Shown here one piece after another: positions 56,258-64,000 of a stretch of 64,000 bases of DNA. The position numbers and the translations under genes are program-made. Each line of letters begins with the position of its first letter. The stretch's first letter is position 1. The notes beneath the pieces are model-generated. The model was not told the origin of the DNA. It was given only the letters and a program-made list of their open reading frames with translations, and did no database searches. Source of the DNA: Sphingomonas alba (GTDB lineage: Bacteria > Pseudomonadota > Alphaproteobacteria > Sphingomonadales > Sphingomonadaceae); the NCBI RefSeq assembly GCF_023516555.1, contig NZ_JAMGBD010000001.1, positions 868,001 to 932,000 of the forward strand. The letters are read 5' to 3'.

Positions 56258-56536
56258 ATGGCGAAACGCATTCTCCTGCCCGAAAGCGATCCGGCGGCGA
56301 CCCTCCTCACCGTCGAGGAGTTGGAGATGGGCTTTAGCGACGGCCATGTCGAAGCCTTCCGCGAGACGGTGATTGCCGCCATCCGCGAGACATCTGAATT
56401 ACTCAGGACTGAAGACATGCCGGCGCGCTGGCGGGCGCAGCTCGACCGCCAGGTCCGCCACATGCGGCACTATGTCGAAATCGCCGACCTCTATCTGGCG
56501 AAGCAAAGCGGCAGCGGATCCAGCCTGATCAACTAG
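56258..56536 (+). CDS. Hypothetical protein, 92 residues
   Basis: Charged helical protein (TVEELEMGFSDGHVEAFRETVIAAIRETSELL, WRAQLDRQVRHMRHYVEIADLYLAKQ). Shares CTAG with the convergent ackA end. I do not recognise a family, and the ribosome site is unclear. Confidence 0.5.
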   Translation: MAKRILLPESDPAATLLTVEELEMGFSDGHVEAFRETVIAAIRETSELLRTEDMPARWRAQLDRQVRHMRHYVEIADLYLAKQSGSGSSLIN

Positions 56537-57708
56537 AGCCCCAGCAACGCCGCGGTATGGCGGCAGATCACCATCTCTTCGTCTGTCGGCAGTACCCAGA
56601 CGGGGATCCTTGAGGACTCCGCGTCGATACGCTGGGCGTGGTCGGCGTTCGCCTGCTCGTCGAGCGCAGCGCCAAGCCACCCGCAGCCGGCGACCACTTC
56701 CGCCCGGGTCTTCGTGTCGCGCTGGCCGATACCGCCAGTGAAGACGAGGCCGTCGAGCCCGCCGAGCGCGGCCGATAGCGAGCCGATCTCGCGCACGATG
56801 CGATAGACGAAAAGGTCGGTTGCCTCCTTGGCCCTTGGATCGTCCGACTGGCGCAGCGTACGCATGTCGGACGAAATCCCCGACACGCCGAGAAGGCCTG
56901 ACTTCTTGTAGACCAGGGCCTCAAGCTTCCGTGCATCCATTCCCGCTTCGTCCAGGAGGTAGATGAGGACGCCGGGATCAACCGAGCCGCACCGGGTGCC
57001 CATCATCAGGCCCTCAACCGCAGTGAAGCCCATGGTTGTCGCGGCACTCTTGCCGCCATCAAGCGCACAGAGGCTGGCCCCGTTGCCGAGGTGAGCGATA
57101 ATGATCTTCTTTTCGGCGTAGTCCGGCGCGACCTCACGCAACTTTCCTGCGACAAATTCATACGAGAGGCCATGGAAGCCGTAGCGGCGCACGCCCTTGT
57201 CGGTGATGTCGCGCGGGAGCGCGAACGAATAAGCAAGCGCCTCCTGCGTTTGATGGAAGCTCGTGTCGAAGCAGGCGACCTGCCGAATTGCCGGCACCCG
57301 CAATGCTATCGCCTTGATCGGCCCAAGGTTATGCGGTTGGTGCAGCGGGGCCAGCGGGGTTAGTTTGTCCAGTTCCCGAATGACCTCCTGCGTGATTTCT
57401 ACTGGCGCAGCATATTTGGTCCCGCCGTGGACTACGCGATGGCCAATGCCTTCGACAGTCGAACCGGGGAGCAATTCCCTGAGCTTGTCGATGATGACGT
57501 GCATTGCCTCGGCATGGCCAAAGCCTTCCGGGGGCCATTCATGCTTGGCCACTTCCTCGCCGCCGGCGTTTTCGACAGTAAGCCTCGGCGATACCCCGAT
57601 CTGCTCCACCTGGCCCTTCAGCAGGAGCTTCTCTTCGCCGGCCGTATCGTAAATGCCGAACTTCACGCTCGACGAACCGGCGTTCACGACTGCGATGCAT
57701 TTGGCCAT
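56533..57708 (-). CDS. ackA: Acetate kinase
   Basis: 391 residues, ASKHA fold. Interconverts acetyl phosphate and acetate with ATP/ADP. VNAGSSSVKF (nucleotide), HRVVHGG, ACFDTSFH, HLGNGASLCA and TRCGSVDPG motifs are complete. Last gene of the DUF3141-pta-fabI-ackA operon. Confidence 0.94.
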   Translation of the reverse strand: MAKCIAVVNAGSSSVKFGIYDTAGEEKLLLKGQVEQIGVSPRLTVENAGGEEVAKHEWPPEGFGHAEAMHVIIDKLRELLPGSTVEGIGHRVVHGGTKYAAPVEITQEVIRELDKLTPLAPLHQPHNLGPIKAIALRVPAIRQVACFDTSFHQTQEALAYSFALPRDITDKGVRRYGFHGLSYEFVAGKLREVAPDYAEKKIIIAHLGNGASLCALDGGKSAATTMGFTAVEGLMMGTRCGSVDPGVLIYLLDEAGMDARKLEALVYKKSGLLGVSGISSDMRTLRQSDDPRAKEATDLFVYRIVREIGSLSAALGGLDGLVFTGGIGQRDTKTRAEVVAGCGWLGAALDEQANADHAQRIDAESSRIPVWVLPTDEEMVICRHTAALLGL

Positions 57709-57719
57709 GGGCTTGCTCC

Positions 57720-58496
57720 TCAGGCGACGATGTTGGCGCCGCCGTCGATGTAGATCGTGCCGCCCGTGATCCGCCGGGCGTAGGGACTGGCGAGGTAGGC
57801 GCAGGCGGAGCCGACATCGTCGATGTCGACCAGTTCGTGCAGCGGCGACTGCGACGCGGCATCGTTCAACAGCCGCGAGAAATCCTTGATGCCGGACGAC
57901 GCGCGGGTAGCGAGCGGCCCGGGCGAAATCGGGTGGACGCGGATGTCCTTGTCGCCAAGCTCGAACGCCAAATAGCGGCAGGCCGCTTCCAGCGCCGCCT
58001 TGACCGGCCCCATGACGTTGTAATTGGCAACCACTCGTTCTGCACCGAGATAGCTCATCGCGAACATCGTACCGCCATCCTTCATCAGCGGGGCCGCGAG
58101 CTTCGCCATGCGCACGAACGAGTGGCAGGACACATCCATGGCCCGTGCGAAGCCGGCCGCAGAACAGTCGAGCAGCCCGCCCTGCAGGTCTTCCTTGGGC
58201 GCGAAGGCGATCGAATGGATCAGACTGTCGAGACGCCCCCAGCGCGCGCCGATTTGGTCGAATAGTGCCTCCAGCTCGCCCGGGTTTTCGACGTTGAGGG
58301 GCGCCATGATTTCGGCCCCCAGCGCCTCGCCAAGTGGCTCGACATGCGGACGCGCCTTGTCGTTAAGCCAGGTGATGGCGAGGTCGGCGCCGGCCGCCCG
58401 GAAGGCGGTGGCGCAGCCGTAGGCGATGGACTGGTCGTTGGCGATGCCGACGATCAGCGAATTGTGACCGTCGAGGATCGGCCGGACGTCGCTCAT
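57720..58496 (-). CDS. fabI: Enoyl-[acyl-carrier-protein] reductase (NADH)
   Basis: 258 residues from ATG 58496. FabI-type SDR with Y149, then Y159-x6-K166 (NYNVMGPVK) instead of the classical YxxxK. The N-terminal nucleotide site is GIANDQSIAYG. Reduces trans-2-enoyl-ACP. Between pta and ackA it may serve a separate acyl pool, not bulk fatty acid synthesis; whether it is the only FabI cannot be told here. Confidence 0.92.
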   Translation of the reverse strand: MSDVRPILDGHNSLIVGIANDQSIAYGCATAFRAAGADLAITWLNDKARPHVEPLGEALGAEIMAPLNVENPGELEALFDQIGARWGRLDSLIHSIAFAPKEDLQGGLLDCSAAGFARAMDVSCHSFVRMAKLAAPLMKDGGTMFAMSYLGAERVVANYNVMGPVKAALEAACRYLAFELGDKDIRVHPISPGPLATRASSGIKDFSRLLNDAASQSPLHELVDIDDVGSACAYLASPYARRITGGTIYIDGGANIVA

Positions 58497-58500
58497 AGGC

Positions 58501-59481
58501 TTACTGGATCGCCGCGCTGGCGTCCGCGCGCCTGGCGGCGGCGACGAGCTGGGCAACCGCGCAGGAGGCGAGCCTTGCGATCTCGCTGTCGGCGCGGCTG
58601 GTCAGGATGACCGGTACCTTGGCGCCAAGCACGATGCCGGCTGCGTCGGCACCGGCGAGGAACGACAGGCTCTTCGCGAGCATATTGCCGGCCTCAAGGT
58701 CGGGAACGACGAGCACGTTCGCCTTGCCGGCCACCGGAGAGTCGATCTTCTTGATCTTCGCCGCTTCCGGGCTGATCGCATTATCGAGCGCCAGCGGTCC
58801 GTCGAGCTGGGCGCCCGTGATCTGGCCGCGGTCCGCCATCTTGCACAACGCCGCCGCTTCGAGCGTCGAGGGAACGTCCGGGTTGACGGTCTCCATCGCG
58901 CTCAGGATCGCGACCTTGATGTCGCCCGGCGTCAGCACATGGGCGAGGTCGATCGCGTTCTGGGTAATGTCGACCTTGCCCTTCAGATCCGGTGCGATGT
59001 TGACCGCCGCATCGGTGATGATGAGCGGCTCGTCGTGGTCCGGCACGTCCATGACGAAGCAATGGCTGATCCGCCTTGCGGTCCTGAGTCCGGTGTCGCG
59101 TTTCACGACAGCGCCCATCAGCTCGTCGGTATGGAGGCTTCCCTTCATCAGCGCCTCCGCCTTGCCCTCGCGGACCAGCGCGACGGCCTTGGCGGCGGAG
59201 TCGACGCTATGCTCGGCATCGACGATGTCGAAGCGGCTGATGTCGATGTTATTCGTCGCGGCGACTTCGCGGATCCGCTGCTCCGGCCCGACCAAAATGG
59301 GTTCAATCAGCTTGAGGTCGGCGGCGCTGAGCACCGCCTCGAGCGATGACTTGTCGCAGGGATGGGCAACGGCGACGCGAGCAGGCGGGTTCTGCTGGGC
59401 GCGCGCCACCAGCCGATGGAACTTTTCATGGTCGCGGACGGTGGTGGTCTGCGTCGGTGCCGGCGCGTCAAGAACGGACAT
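58501..59481 (-). CDS. pta: Phosphate acetyltransferase (PTA/PTB family)
   Basis: 326 residues from ATG 59481 (AAGGAGG upstream), starting 14 bases inside the DUF3141 gene. Moves an acyl group between CoA and phosphate. LMKGSLHTDELMGAVV, ITDAAVNIAPDL and IVLGAKVPVILTSRAD mark the PTA/PTB core; the short form resembles phosphate butyryl/acetyl transferases, so acyl chains longer than acetyl are possible. No hydratase domain is fused in this copy. Confidence 0.92.
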   Translation of the reverse strand: MSVLDAPAPTQTTTVRDHEKFHRLVARAQQNPPARVAVAHPCDKSSLEAVLSAADLKLIEPILVGPEQRIREVAATNNIDISRFDIVDAEHSVDSAAKAVALVREGKAEALMKGSLHTDELMGAVVKRDTGLRTARRISHCFVMDVPDHDEPLIITDAAVNIAPDLKGKVDITQNAIDLAHVLTPGDIKVAILSAMETVNPDVPSTLEAAALCKMADRGQITGAQLDGPLALDNAISPEAAKIKKIDSPVAGKANVLVVPDLEAGNMLAKSLSFLAGADAAGIVLGAKVPVILTSRADSEIARLASCAVAQLVAAARRADASAAIQ

Positions 59482-61648
59482 TCTCGTCCTCCTTCTTCGC
59501 GGCCGAGGCCGCTTTGCCATTAAACAATTTCTCGATACGGCCGAGGCGCTTTTTGCCTTCGGCGTTCAGTTCGCCCTGCGCACTCACGATGCGCTGGATG
59601 GCGCGGAGCACCTTCGCCCGCTCATCCACGTCCTTGGGGAGCAGCTTCGGGATGGCGTTGACGGCGCGCTTCTCGTCGAGCCGAAGCAATAACGACTGGT
59701 CACGCAAAGCCTTCTTGAGTTGGCCCTCGCTGCGCGGACGCCCGCTGAACTGGGCATCGTGCATCGCCTTGATCACGGCGAAGCTGCGCTCGTCGGCGCC
59801 GCCCGCCCCAGCAATCACGAAAGCGATGGACCTCAGCGCCGCCTCGACCGCGCCACCCTTGTCGAACTGCCCTTCCAGCTCCTCGCGCTGTTTCGCCTGC
59901 ACCTGCTCGCGAACGGGATCACGCGCCGGCGCTTTGGATGCCTTCGCGCTCTCTGGATCGAGCCCGACCAGCGCCTGCACCAACGGCGAACCATAGGTGT
60001 AATGGAACAGCCGCTCCGTCATGGTATCGCGAGCGGCGCCAAAGGCCGTCAGCGTGTCGCTGATCGACTTGGCAACCGTCTTTTCGAACGCTGACAGCGG
60101 ATTGTCCTCAGCCGCCGGCTGGCGGTTCTTACGGACCTGCTCGGCAGTTTCGGCAACGAGCCGCATCGCCGGATTTTCGTCGGAAAAAATGGCGAAGCGC
60201 ACGCGGTTGGGATGCATCTTTTGGGCCCAGTCGCCGAAACCGGGCGGCGTCAGCGCCTCAACGAACGGCCTGGCATAGGAGGCGTAGAGGCGGCGGTTGA
60301 TGGCCGACAGGCGATCGACCGCTGCAAATTTGAGCTGGTCCTTGGGGCTATTCTCACCGAGCTTGCGGATATCGTCGAGCGTCCGCGGCTGGAGCTTGAA
60401 GAGGTAGCGGCCATGCACGAGTTCCTTATTGGCCGTGTCCTCGCCGACATCGTCGATCACCGCCTCGTAGAGTCCGGGCGGCATCAGGTCGATCATGTCC
60501 ATTGCACTCGCGAACTCGTCATGCTCGCGCGTCGCGATCTTTCCGGACACGAAGATGCCGAGATGCCCGACCGTCTCGTGGATCGCGTAGACGATGGTCT
60601 GTCCGTTGGCGACGAGGTCGCGGTCGGTCGGATACAAATCGGTGATCCACCCGAGCGCCTGCTGCGGTGGCGTGATATTGTCGCCCCACGAGCAGAAGAC
60701 GATGATCGGCGACTGGATATTCCTGAGGTCGATCTGTACGCCTTCGGAAGTGCGCAGCTCACCGGCGGTGAGCTTGTTGCCGACGAAGAGGTTGTCGGCG
60801 ATCCACTGCATCTCGCCGGCATTCAGCAGCACCGGGCTGCCCCACCAAGTCTCGAAATCGAGGAATCGCTCGGCCTCGGTGTCGACCTTGGAATAGACGT
60901 TGTACGGCTTTTCGAAATAGGTGTTGGCCGGATCGAGACTCTCGAAATTGGCGACGAGGTTGGCGCCATCGAACTTGCCGCCACCAAGGTCGCCGGCAAG
61001 GCTCGTCAGCCACGTGCCACCGACCATTCCGCCCGTATAGCGCATCGGATTCTTGCCGCGGACGCCGGCCCAATAGGACAGCGGAGCTCCGGCGAGCAGC
61101 AGCGGTCCCGGCACTTCCGGATGGGTCGCGGCCATGATCGCCGTCTGCCAGCCCGCCTGGCAATTGCCGATGACGACGGGCTTGCCGCCTTCCGGATGGA
61201 GCCGGGCAACTTCACGGACGAATTCCGCTTCCGCATTCCAGACGTCTTCGATGGTCTGGTCGGCCACCGGTTCAGGCAGGAAGCCGATGAAATAGCAGGG
61301 GTGGCCGTCTTCCAGTGCCACCCCGATCTCGCTGTCCGCTTTCATCCCGCCGATGCCGGGCCCATGGCCGGCGCGCGGATCGACGACGACGAAGGCGCGC
61401 TTGGCCGGATCTGTCGGGACATCGGGAAGCGGCGCGACCCGGACCAGCGCGTAATTGACCGGCCGCGCCAGCTTCCGGCCATCCATCACCAGTTCGGCAT
61501 CGAATTCCAGGACATGGGGAGCGACCTCTGCCTGCCGCTCACGGTAGGTATTGCCGCGCTGCCGGAGGACGTCGAGGAACAGGATCGACCGTTGCCACGC
61601 GTCGCGCAGATATTCGTGGGCAGGGCCAAAGGTCTGCTCGCCGGGCAT
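59468..61648 (-). CDS. DUF3141 protein, PHA-synthase-like alpha/beta hydrolase
   Basis: 726 residues from ATG 61648 (GAGGCG upstream). N-terminal SILFLDVLRQRG and RPVNYALVRV are DUF3141 marks. The fold is alpha/beta hydrolase with a PhaC-type nucleophile elbow G161-N-C163-Q-A-G166, aspartate D323 (SWGDNITPP) and H362 (VGHLGIFVSG), so a Cys-Asp-His triad like that of polyhydroxyalkanoate synthase. The last 250 residues are helical, a possible self-association tail. Heads the pta-fabI-ackA operon. The 258 bases upstream hold the promoter region and show no PHO box. Confidence 0.85.
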   Translation of the reverse strand: MPGEQTFGPAHEYLRDAWQRSILFLDVLRQRGNTYRERQAEVAPHVLEFDAELVMDGRKLARPVNYALVRVAPLPDVPTDPAKRAFVVVDPRAGHGPGIGGMKADSEIGVALEDGHPCYFIGFLPEPVADQTIEDVWNAEAEFVREVARLHPEGGKPVVIGNCQAGWQTAIMAATHPEVPGPLLLAGAPLSYWAGVRGKNPMRYTGGMVGGTWLTSLAGDLGGGKFDGANLVANFESLDPANTYFEKPYNVYSKVDTEAERFLDFETWWGSPVLLNAGEMQWIADNLFVGNKLTAGELRTSEGVQIDLRNIQSPIIVFCSWGDNITPPQQALGWITDLYPTDRDLVANGQTIVYAIHETVGHLGIFVSGKIATREHDEFASAMDMIDLMPPGLYEAVIDDVGEDTANKELVHGRYLFKLQPRTLDDIRKLGENSPKDQLKFAAVDRLSAINRRLYASYARPFVEALTPPGFGDWAQKMHPNRVRFAIFSDENPAMRLVAETAEQVRKNRQPAAEDNPLSAFEKTVAKSISDTLTAFGAARDTMTERLFHYTYGSPLVQALVGLDPESAKASKAPARDPVREQVQAKQREELEGQFDKGGAVEAALRSIAFVIAGAGGADERSFAVIKAMHDAQFSGRPRSEGQLKKALRDQSLLLRLDEKRAVNAIPKLLPKDVDERAKVLRAIQRIVSAQGELNAEGKKRLGRIEKLFNGKAASAAKKEDENVRS

Positions 61649-61906
61649 TTGGGGGTCGCCTCGCAGTTGAGCGGCAAAAATATGCCGCAGGCCAGCGCGG
61701 AGAATCCGGATATCCCCTGACGCACCGCACAAAGTTCCGCGCCAATCGCGAAGCTGAAGGGGCCCATCAGAAACTCTATGAGGTCGAATAGGGACTCACC
61801 CCGATACTAGGCTCCTCCCAGACGGCTAATGCTCCACTCCGCTCGCGACTGGATTTCGGGGGCGTTTGTCGTCCGTTCCAGTCCCTAGTCATTGGTGGAG
61901 GGGTGA

Positions 61907-63505
61907 ATGGACTACGAGATCGACAGCAGCGAAGATATCGCACTTCCCGAACTGGATTTCACCGAACCGCCAGTCGGATCGGATCGCCGTACATTCATGG
62001 TGCGGAGCGCGATGGCGACCGCGATTGCAGCGCTTGGCGGCACGACGAATGCCCTTTGGGCGCAAGAACCGGCCGGCGCGCCCCTGACCGGGGGCAAGCT
62101 CGACCCCAACCTGGAAGTCGTGAAGCAGGAAAAGGGTCCGGTCATGACCCTGGTCGACGAATTCTACAAAGTCGGCCCAGGTCCGTCGTCCTCCCACACC
62201 ATCGGTCCGATGCGGATCACCTACGATTTCTATCAACGGGCGATCAAACTTCCGCAGGCGACCCTCGACCAGGCCACTGCATTGAAGGTCCATCTTTACG
62301 GCAGCCTCAGCGCGACAGGTAAAGGTCACGGGACGGAGCGCGCCGCGCTGGCCGGCCTCATTGGCCATGAGCCGGCGACGATCGATCCGGTCGCGGTTCT
62401 CGACAAGATGGCCGCAGAGCCCAACAAGACCTATCCGGTTAAGCTCGGAACGAAGACGATCAACGCGTCGCTCGCCGACATCATTTACGACGCCACCAAG
62501 GGTGATTTCCCCCATGCCAACACCATGACGGCCAAGCTGATGGCTGGCGACAAGGTGTTGCTGGAGCAGGAATATTATTCCGTCGGCGGCGGCTTCATCG
62601 AATGGAAGGGCTATACGCCGCCCAAGAAGAACCCGCCCAAATATCCCTATGTGACGATGGCGGACCTGCTGAAGCATGCCAGCGACAACAACCTCACCGT
62701 GGCGCAAGTCGCCATGGCGAACGAGACGTCGATTTCCGGCAAGAGCGAAGCAGAGGTCAACGCCTTCCTGGACAAGATCATCGGCGCCATGCGCGCCACG
62801 GTGAAGACGGGTTTGGCAGCACCGACCGCAACCTTACCCGGACCCATCAAGCTCAAGACCAAGGCACACGATGTCTATGCCAACGCCTCGAAGGAGACCT
62901 CACCGGCGCGGAAAGGCATAGGTCTCGTATCGGCAGCGGCTCTTGCCGGGTCCGAAGAAAACGCGCGCGGCCACCTGGTCATTACCGCGCCGACGGGCGG
63001 TTCCGCAGGTGTGATGCCGGCCGTCGTCTATTCGCTTGGACCGGACATGGCGAAGAAGTCCGACCAGCAGATCCGCGACGCGCTGCTCGCCGGCGCGGTT
63101 GTCGGATACCTGTGCAAGCACCATGCGACCTTGGCTGCGGCCGAGGGTGGCTGCCAGGCCGAAATCGGGGTCGCATCCGCCATGGGTGCGGCGGCGATCG
63201 CCCAGGCGCATGGCGCATCCAACCAGGTGATCGCCAACGCTGCCGAAGGCGCCCTTGAGCACCACCTCGGTATGACCTGCGACCCGGTTGCCGGCTTCGT
63301 GCAGATTCCCTGCATCGAGCGCTGCGCATTCGGCGCGGTGAAGTCGTGGACAGGCTATCTCATCGCGTCAAATGAGGTCCCTGCCAATCGGCGCGTAGAC
63401 TTCGATTCCACGGTCCAGGCGCTCGCCATCACGGCGAAGGAAATGAACTCAAAGTACAAGGAAACCTCGGAAGGCGGCCTAGCCGTATCCCTGGTCCTTT
63501 GCTGA
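61907..63505 (+). CDS. sdaA: L-serine ammonia-lyase (iron-sulfur) with a twin-arginine leader
   Basis: 532 residues. Residues 1-25 are acidic, then the twin-arginine motif D-R27-R28-T-F-M and a hydrophobic segment to about 50 (ALWA-Q). The rest is the single-chain type 2 serine dehydratase: PSSSHTIGPMR (93-103), then Fe-S cysteines C416, C458 and C469, spaced exactly as C343/C385/C396 of the Legionella enzyme, plus a C-terminal Cys (C532) matching its tail residue. Converts serine to pyruvate and ammonia. The leader implies export through Tat with the cluster already built. Confidence 0.9.
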   Translation: MDYEIDSSEDIALPELDFTEPPVGSDRRTFMVRSAMATAIAALGGTTNALWAQEPAGAPLTGGKLDPNLEVVKQEKGPVMTLVDEFYKVGPGPSSSHTIGPMRITYDFYQRAIKLPQATLDQATALKVHLYGSLSATGKGHGTERAALAGLIGHEPATIDPVAVLDKMAAEPNKTYPVKLGTKTINASLADIIYDATKGDFPHANTMTAKLMAGDKVLLEQEYYSVGGGFIEWKGYTPPKKNPPKYPYVTMADLLKHASDNNLTVAQVAMANETSISGKSEAEVNAFLDKIIGAMRATVKTGLAAPTATLPGPIKLKTKAHDVYANASKETSPARKGIGLVSAAALAGSEENARGHLVITAPTGGSAGVMPAVVYSLGPDMAKKSDQQIRDALLAGAVVGYLCKHHATLAAAEGGCQAEIGVASAMGAAAIAQAHGASNQVIANAAEGALEHHLGMTCDPVAGFVQIPCIERCAFGAVKSWTGYLIASNEVPANRRVDFDSTVQALAITAKEMNSKYKETSEGGLAVSLVLC

Positions 63506-63512
63506 GAAATAC

Positions 63513-64000
63513 GTGAGCGGGCCGGAACAGCGGTCGGGGATTTCGGCGGCGATTACCGCCGCATGGCTACTGACCGCTGTTTTCTATTTCTACCAATATG
63601 CGATGCGGTCGGCGCCGGCCGTGATGATGCCGGACCTGACCTCGGCTTTCGGCATGTCTGCGGTCGGCATCGCATCGCTGGTCGGCCTCTTCTACTGGGG
63701 ATATGCGCCCTTCAGCCTGGTGGCGGGCGTCGCCATGGACCAGGTCGGGCCGCGCGCCGTCGTGCCCATGGGCGCCGCCTGCGTCGCGGTCGGCGCGATG
63801 TTGTTTTCAACGGGCGACACGACGCTCGCCAGCATTGGCAGGTTCCTGCAAGGGGCCGGCGGCGTCTTCGCGCTCATTGGCGCCATCTACCTCGTCAGCA
63901 CATACATGCCGGCTTCGCGCGCGGCGACGATGATCGGCTTCACCCAGATGTTCGGCATGGCGGGAGGCTCGGCCGGTCAGTTCGTCGTCGGACCGATGAT
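63513..64000 (+). CDS. MFS transporter, N-terminal part (runs off the window)
   Basis: GTG start at 63513, seven bases past the dehydratase stop, open to the window edge (162 codons). Helices at about 13-33, 50-70 and 80-100, MDQVGPRAVVPMGA in the first loop, and a fourth to sixth helix. It belongs to the sugar phosphate/organic-anion part of the MFS. The close spacing implies cotranscription with the dehydratase, so it may carry pyruvate, serine or a related organic acid. Confidence 0.88.
   Translation, partial: MSGPEQRSGISAAITAAWLLTAVFYFYQYAMRSAPAVMMPDLTSAFGMSAVGIASLVGLFYWGYAPFSLVAGVAMDQVGPRAVVPMGAACVAVGAMLFSTGDTTLASIGRFLQGAGGVFALIGAIYLVSTYMPASRAATMIGFTQMFGMAGGSAGQFVVGPM

Follow-up and report, generated by a model that had tools for sequence, protein, structure and literature searches.

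A conserved twin-arginine-type leader on a predicted type 2 L-serine dehydratase in a fermentation cassette of Sphingomonas alba

We analysed a 64,000-nucleotide stretch of the Sphingomonas alba genome (contig NZ_JAMGBD010000001.1, positions 868,001 to 932,000; hereafter, the window) near whose end lies a gene for a 532-residue protein of the type 2 L-serine dehydratase family with a twin-arginine leader at its N-terminus (Table 1). The open reading frame begins with ATG, immediately 5' of which stands the purine-rich run ggtggaggggtga. Only 7 bases past the dehydratase stop codon, a GTG at 63513 opens the gene for an MFS transporter, which extends beyond the edge of the window and is followed in the genome by genes for a pyruvate formate-lyase (PFL; 751 aa), a 287-aa radical-SAM protein at the place of the activase (Pfam-checked in this genome) and a DcaP-like porin. 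Its equivalog score (1150.6 against a cut-off of 994.2) marks the PFL as a pyruvate-type enzyme. The MFS protein has no relative in the PDB at E 0.01 and its NCBIfam matches fall far below every cut-off. On the other side, divergent from the dehydratase gene, lie genes for a DUF3141 protein, whose true start may be further in, a phosphotransacetylase (Pta), a short-chain dehydrogenase and an acetate kinase (AckA). By its predicted gene content, the dehydratase gene sits in a fermentation cassette. The DUF3141 BLAST cluster adjoins Pta in three other loci as well (L016, L021 and L028). FNR-like boxes (TTGATNNNNATCAA, up to two mismatches) occur 14 times in the window against 12.2 expected, and none lies just 5' of the dehydratase gene, so that these boxes give no evidence of anaerobic control. 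The genome of Sphingomonas alba holds no second match to the dehydratase at E 0.001, and a search for plasmid-borne copies returned none at E 1e-100.

Table 1. Coordinates of the features discussed. Entries with a locus identifier (L) use the numbering of that locus; all others use the numbering of the window.
Feature	Coordinates	Strand	Basis or remark
Acetate kinase	56533..57708	-	Pfam
Enoyl-ACP-reductase-like short-chain dehydrogenase, between Pta and AckA	57720..58556	-	Pfam
Phosphotransacetylase (PTA_PTB)	58501..59520	-	Pfam
DUF3141 protein	59468..61732	-	Pfam
Type 2 L-serine dehydratase with predicted Tat leader, 532 aa	61907..63505	+	ORF, SDH_beta + SDH_alpha, TIGR00720, 4rqo fold match
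Twin-arginine leader, residues 1-52	61907..62062	+	RR 27-28; hydrophobic ~31-45; LWA-Q 50-53
SDH_beta domain (PF03315), residues 85-234	62159..62608	+	Pfam match
SDH_alpha domain (PF03313), residues 261-526	62687..63484	+	Pfam match
C416 codon, predicted [4Fe-4S] ligand	63152..63154	+	invariant; aligned to 4rqo
C458 codon, predicted [4Fe-4S] ligand	63278..63280	+	invariant; aligned to 4rqo
C469 codon, predicted [4Fe-4S] ligand	63311..63313	+	invariant; aligned to 4rqo
C473 codon, clade-specific Cys four residues past C469	63323..63325	+	Asn in ordinary enzymes
Terminal C532 codon	63500..63502	+	kept in 75/75 clade rows
MFS transporter, first 162 aa in window	63513..64000	+	Pfam; 425 aa in genome (L096 2513-3790)
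Rid-family proteins in the cluster	L071 5435-5869; L076 7716-8147; L077 3140-3577		Sec-type start by eye
Unlinked Rid-family proteins	L099 1486-1968; L101 1492-1971	-	Sec-type starts
Gene next to the unlinked Rid gene	L099 1944-2582	-	Tat-like start
Aspartate ammonia-lyase-like proteins	L068 1766-3244; L074 2515-4050		Sec-type start by eye
Conserved 204-261 aa protein 3' of dehydratase	L067 7604-8218; L071 7589-8332; L077 7555-8340
Dehydratase genes with a cysteine-rich stretch before the twin arginines	L079 5806-7518; L080 1506-3173; L081 5764-7395; L082 5764-7395; L084 5899-7527; L085 166-1788

Family models and structure comparison agree that the protein is a one-chain Fe-S L-serine dehydratase, for which activity on L-serine is predicted. 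It scores 385.5 against TIGR00720 (L-serine ammonia-lyase, one chain; cut-off 345.1) over residues 85-528, and this model is matched by all 41 members of the alignment. The nearest solved structure is that of the Legionella pneumophila type 2 L-serine dehydratase (PDB 4rqo; E 2.8e-84), which has the same one-chain beta-alpha build, cysteine spacing and terminal Cys, but differs in that its aligned chain has no leader and carries Asn where the window protein has Cys473 and Gly364. An AlphaFold2 model built from 41 sequences (mean pLDDT 75.3, pTM 0.74) matches 4rqo with TM-scores of 0.70/0.83 at 38% identity; next, and far weaker, comes the L-cysteine desulfidase CyuA (PDB 9fyi and 9fsl), which is distantly homologous in the catalytic domain (10-12% identity in fold alignments). 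The model places a helix at residues 27-44, while residues 1-20 and 44-66 and the loops 408-414 and 459-466, which adjoin the cluster cysteines, have pLDDT values below 50. The cysteines C416, C458 and C469, with spacings of 42 and 11, and the terminal C532 are invariant in all 75 clade rows (the clade is defined below), and the first three positions are also Cys in the nine ordinary enzymes with which the clade was compared. Their counterparts in the Legionella enzyme are the ligands of the [4Fe-4S] cluster. The original prediction of a complete type 2 enzyme at this place, with these four cysteines, an MFS gene seven bases downstream and a leader composed of an acidic segment, a D-R-R-T-F-M motif and a hydrophobic stretch ending in ALWA-Q, was thus borne out in each part: the reading frame is exact, both domains are present, and the equivalog cut-off is passed.

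Around this shared core, the clade has features of its own. At 14 positions, it is fixed (at least 97% of 75 rows) for a residue that differs from all nine ordinary rows. These include N to C at position 473, where the 75 clade rows have Cys and both the nine ordinary rows and 4rqo have Asn, and A to S at position 366; His453, another of the 14, is common to the clade and the Legionella enzyme. In addition, the Asn of the ordinary enzymes and of 4rqo at position 364 is replaced in the clade by Gly (68 rows, including the window protein) or Ala (7 rows). Cys473 is not tied to the leader, since leaderless clade members have it too. A conserved C403-C473 disulfide was considered and dropped, because some rows carry Gly at 403. 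Such substitutions would fit an enzyme that Tat exports but that acts mainly on a different amino acid with a hydroxy or thiol group, or whose task is to clear toxic serine from outside or to liberate ammonium and not to feed fermentation. We regard this alternative as distinctly unlikely: the score exceeds the cut-off of the serine ammonia-lyase equivalog, none of the four cysteines is lost, and the cassette encodes a pyruvate-type formate-lyase; in its favour stand the clade-fixed differences, one of which (His453) is shared with 4rqo, and the loci described below that have no fermentation genes nearby. With these substitutions, L-serine is a predicted substrate of the clade enzymes, whose preference and kinetics may differ from those of the ordinary ones.

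The leader of the window protein starts with acidic residues 1-26, followed by D26-R27-R28-T29-F30-M31, a hydrophobic stretch and ALWA-Q, with A52/Q53 as the probable site of signal peptidase I cleavage. This site was read by eye, because an AxA-like pattern, found in 72 of the 76 leaders, is barely above the mean of 65.2 in shuffled sequences; for the same reason, the count of such sites was rejected as proof of cleavage. Of the 79 orthologues whose N-terminus can be read (80 loci minus L087, which is without its N-terminus), 76 have twin arginines followed by a hydrophobic stretch, always as RRxF, whereas among 387 other conserved coding sequences of the same loci, read from their first possible start codon so that some true leaders may be missed, only 12 have this combination. 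Of the ordinary dehydratase loci, the control scan covered those on the plus strand, and its hits in L012-L015 are pieces or upstream DNA and not clear leaders. In comparisons with seven relatives, pN/pS was below 1 in all three leader regions (0.09-0.78), against 0.13-0.22 in the mature part; these counts are uncorrected, with pS at 0.48-0.85. The pattern shows purifying selection on the leader, and because the leader is both constrained and conserved, we rejected the view that it is a chance or start-site artefact.

A second signature within the leader concerns cysteine. Behind the twin arginines, the 76 leaders hold 17 cysteines, of which 16 fall exactly 19 residues past RR, following in order a hydrophobic residue, one that is small or hydrophobic, and Gly (for example LTGC, IAGC and LFGC). 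A strict lipobox pattern is present in 15 of 76 leaders; over 500 shuffles, the number of such leaders averaged 2.0 and never exceeded 6. The fixed-offset Cys of these 16 relatives is thus lipobox-like, resembling that of Tat lipoproteins, although only two of the 41 alignment members match the lipoprotein model LPAM_1, with E 0.1 at best. As a separate observation, Bacteroidota and some Acidobacteriota members have a cysteine-rich stretch, often CxxCxxxxCxxC, on the N-terminal side of the twin arginines (Table 1; also L078, L088 and L089), which may bind metal or act as a maturation check.

The Tat-signal profile TIGR01409 gives weak matches to 11 of the 41 alignment members, with E 0.0011 at best, and the window protein does not match it even at E 10. 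This is one of the points in favour of a different role for the leader, namely that of an uncleaved tail or inner-membrane tether that would keep the enzyme at the cytoplasmic side of the membrane, close to PFL and the MFS carrier; serine would then be imported and deaminated within the cell, as happens in E. coli. The twin arginines, however, are kept across phyla, and a tether on the cytoplasmic side would have no need for a lipobox-like Cys at one offset in 16 of 76 leaders. TatC is encoded in Sphingomonas alba and in each of the 38 clade genomes that were picked from among the 80 loci, which is a necessary condition only, since 11 of 14 control genomes have TatC too. The original prediction had also held that the enzyme is made for Tat export, and had raised the question of whether close orthologues lack the leader. 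They do not: near and remote orthologues alike carry it, and its conservation, the purifying selection on it, the lipobox-like Cys and the presence of TatC together strengthen the case for predicted export.

The relatives were gathered by a scan of a genome collection that gave 98 stretches, 84 of these being relatives, and the best 80 of the 84 were taken as loci. A tree of 84 rows separates 72 leadered and three leaderless clade members from nine ordinary enzymes, which have no leader, with a 100/100 branch, although the tree program warns that long branches meet at this split. Intermediates may be missed, given how few ordinary enzymes were included and that the window protein served as the query in gathering the clade. 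L001, L050 and L072 were left out of the tree and the site counts (L001 represents the window in the site counts), as were L003, L012-L015, L087, L088, L089, L093 and L094, for which no complete frame was found; L002 and L018 are identical rows, probably from one genome. The clade spans four phyla, comprising Pseudomonadota, Acidobacteriota, Bacteroidota and one planctomycete, and this mixing suggests that the leadered dehydratase has been transferred horizontally, even if metagenome bins make up many of the rows. Members without a leader (L066, L075 and L086; 3 of 75) are nested within the clade, a pattern consistent with three changes, namely a single gain of the leader and two losses. All three fall within the 11 of 80 loci without any named neighbours, some of whose contigs end early. 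Vineibacter terrae (L040, L095) and Microvirga sesbaniae (L045, L046) each have two leadered copies on different contigs.

As judged from its sequences, the leadered clade is rare and separate from the ordinary enzymes. Among 398 Pseudomonadota genomes, matches at E 1e-120 were found only in Sphingomonas alba and one other, and 4 of 297 genomes of Acidobacteriota (the phylum of L077) gave a match, three of these being already known clade genomes. Within the genus, one genome among 24 others (G014) has the clade enzyme, at 84% identity; two more have an ordinary enzyme at 38%, and G003 has ordinary-like pieces.

The company of the dehydratase gene is partly conserved. Genes named by likeness run in the order Pta-AckA-SDH-MFS-PFL-activase on one strand in G014, compared with SDH-MFS-PFL-activase-porin downstream in Sphingomonas alba. 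Across the 80 loci, PFL and/or activase, which form one BLAST cluster, are present in 44, a BLAST-linked MFS carrier gene in 26, an AspT-like exchanger in 25, the Pta cluster in 21 and the AckA cluster in 20; families were Pfam-checked on one or few representatives, and the other cluster labels reflect BLAST linkage. At least one of PFL, Pta and AckA lies near the dehydratase gene in 49 of 80 loci, or in 28 of 59 when Microvirga is set aside; the locus counts are not independent, because 21 of the 80 loci are from this genus. All three are missing from the fetched flanks in the remaining 31 of 80, where some contigs end early, and these are the loci that lend some weight to a role other than fermentation. 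In Microvirga, where the porin label comes from reading by eye, an AspT-like exchanger is in the cluster at 19 of 21 loci and the MFS gene at none, and for this reason we say only that the MFS transporter may import pyruvate. A conserved protein of 204-261 aa is encoded directly 3' of the dehydratase in three Acidobacteriota loci (Table 1).

In a few loci, other enzymes of amino-acid breakdown adjoin the dehydratase with signals of their own. A Rid-family protein with a Sec-type start, read by eye, is encoded in the cluster of three loci. According to PMC5979572, Rid proteins act on 2-aminoacrylate, and RidA was used in a study of the Legionella enzyme. An aspartate ammonia-lyase-like protein with a Sec-type start, read by eye from an internal Met, lies near the dehydratase in L068 and L074, and that of L074 passes NF008909 (651.2 against 510); the corresponding lyase has no leader in L035 and is cut in L034 and L091. 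An asparaginase gene is near the dehydratase gene in 5 of 80 loci. Though few, these predicted exported neighbours are compatible with a periplasmic deamination module. The signal-bearing RidA was considered as strong proof of such a module and was found to be only suggestive: with at least two unlinked signal-bearing genes among the four Rid-family genes of Sphingomonas alba (three of the four inspected), such genes are not rare. Next to one of them, in L099, a gene with a Tat-like start (SRRTFAGTGLASAGLVLATGARAFA) overlaps with its 3' end the start of the signal-bearing Rid gene.

Taking together the enzyme family, the Fe-S cysteines, the conserved Tat-type leader, the cassette and TatC, all of which are read from the sequence, we consider it likely that the dehydratase is exported by Tat and deaminates L-serine in the periplasm, feeding pyruvate to a cytoplasmic PFL-Pta-AckA pathway. 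The operon context makes periplasmic pyruvate production plausible. The dehydratase would fold and gain its [4Fe-4S] cluster in the cytoplasm and then be exported, to become a soluble periplasmic protein here and a lipoprotein in some relatives. Serine would enter through an outer-membrane porin, such as the product of the DcaP-like gene of the same cluster, and at low oxygen would be converted in the periplasm to pyruvate and ammonium. Pyruvate would then be taken up by the adjoining MFS carrier, or by the AspT-like exchanger in most Microvirga loci, and PFL would convert it to acetyl-CoA and formate, from which Pta and AckA would yield acetate and ATP. Export itself, L-serine as the substrate, the functions of transporter and porin and anaerobic use are the parts of this scheme that we infer.

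With deamination outside the inner membrane, serine need not be imported. In keeping with this, the genome of Sphingomonas alba has no permease of PF03222, the family that holds TdcC and SdaC. The absence of such a permease speaks against the tethered, cytoplasmic enzyme introduced above, which would depend on serine import, and so does the occurrence of signal-bearing RidA and aspartase next to the dehydratase, albeit in few loci. Conversely, all downstream enzymes are of expected cytoplasmic kinds, the corresponding enzyme of E. coli tdc lacks a leader and acts within the cell alongside an importer, and PMC9040844 describes the solvent-exposed clusters of dehydratases of this kind as prone to oxidation. 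Weighing these points with those from the leader itself, we think it unlikely that the leader is a tether.

Export of the dehydratase, our preferred reading, would resemble the fermentation of E. coli tdcABCDEFG with the deamination step shifted outside the inner membrane. The tdc operon supplies a serine deaminase (tdcG), a formate-lyase (tdcE), a kinase (tdcD), a Rid protein (tdcF) and an importer (tdcC). An Fe-S serine deaminase, a glycyl-radical formate-lyase, an acyl kinase (on the opposite strand) and a transporter are all present at the Sphingomonas alba locus, with a Rid protein in few relatives; according to PMC9040844, the serine and threonine fermentation pathways of E. coli depend on oxygen-sensitive enzymes. 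The cassette differs from tdc in that an MFS carrier or, in relatives, an AspT-like one stands in the place of TdcC, and in that Pta is added. TdcG, with 37% identity to the window protein, is leaderless, whereas the window protein carries an export-type leader, and no TdcC-type importer of PF03222 was found in the Sphingomonas alba genome. A parallel for the predicted location is periplasmic type II asparaginase, which is exported and acts on an amino acid in the periplasm; it is a hydrolase without a metal cluster.

To our knowledge, type 2 serine dehydratases are treated as cytoplasmic enzymes. Titles and abstract openings found in a search with partial coverage describe no exported serine dehydratase, which is not proof that none has been published. 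In PMC12647591, which reports that CyuA carries an Fe-S cluster and covers the phylogeny of the superfamily, the main text has no occurrence of the terms 'periplasm', 'signal peptide' or 'twin-arginine'. What we describe is an enzyme of a known kind in what would be an unusual place.

There may be a simple reason for export, which is that the cost of amino-acid uptake would be avoided in a fermentation of low yield. The proton of serine symport would be saved, more so if pyruvate were exchanged for formate or acetate. It is possible, if somewhat doubtful, that the arrangement goes further and amounts to a periplasmic front end for amino-acid fermentation, in which the Tat-exported dehydratase, joined in some lineages by Sec-exported RidA, aspartase and asparaginase, would carry out deamination outside, so that only keto and dicarboxylic acids would be imported, perhaps against formate or acetate, and the proton cost of uptake would be saved.

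Known Tat cargo consists mostly of redox enzymes. If our reading is correct, an oxygen-sensitive [4Fe-4S] hydro-lyase with an exposed cluster would join this cargo and be at work in the periplasm, which raises the question of how such a cluster survives there, and serine fermentation could start outside the inner membrane in a clade that crosses phyla and is often associated with a pathway from pyruvate to acetate.
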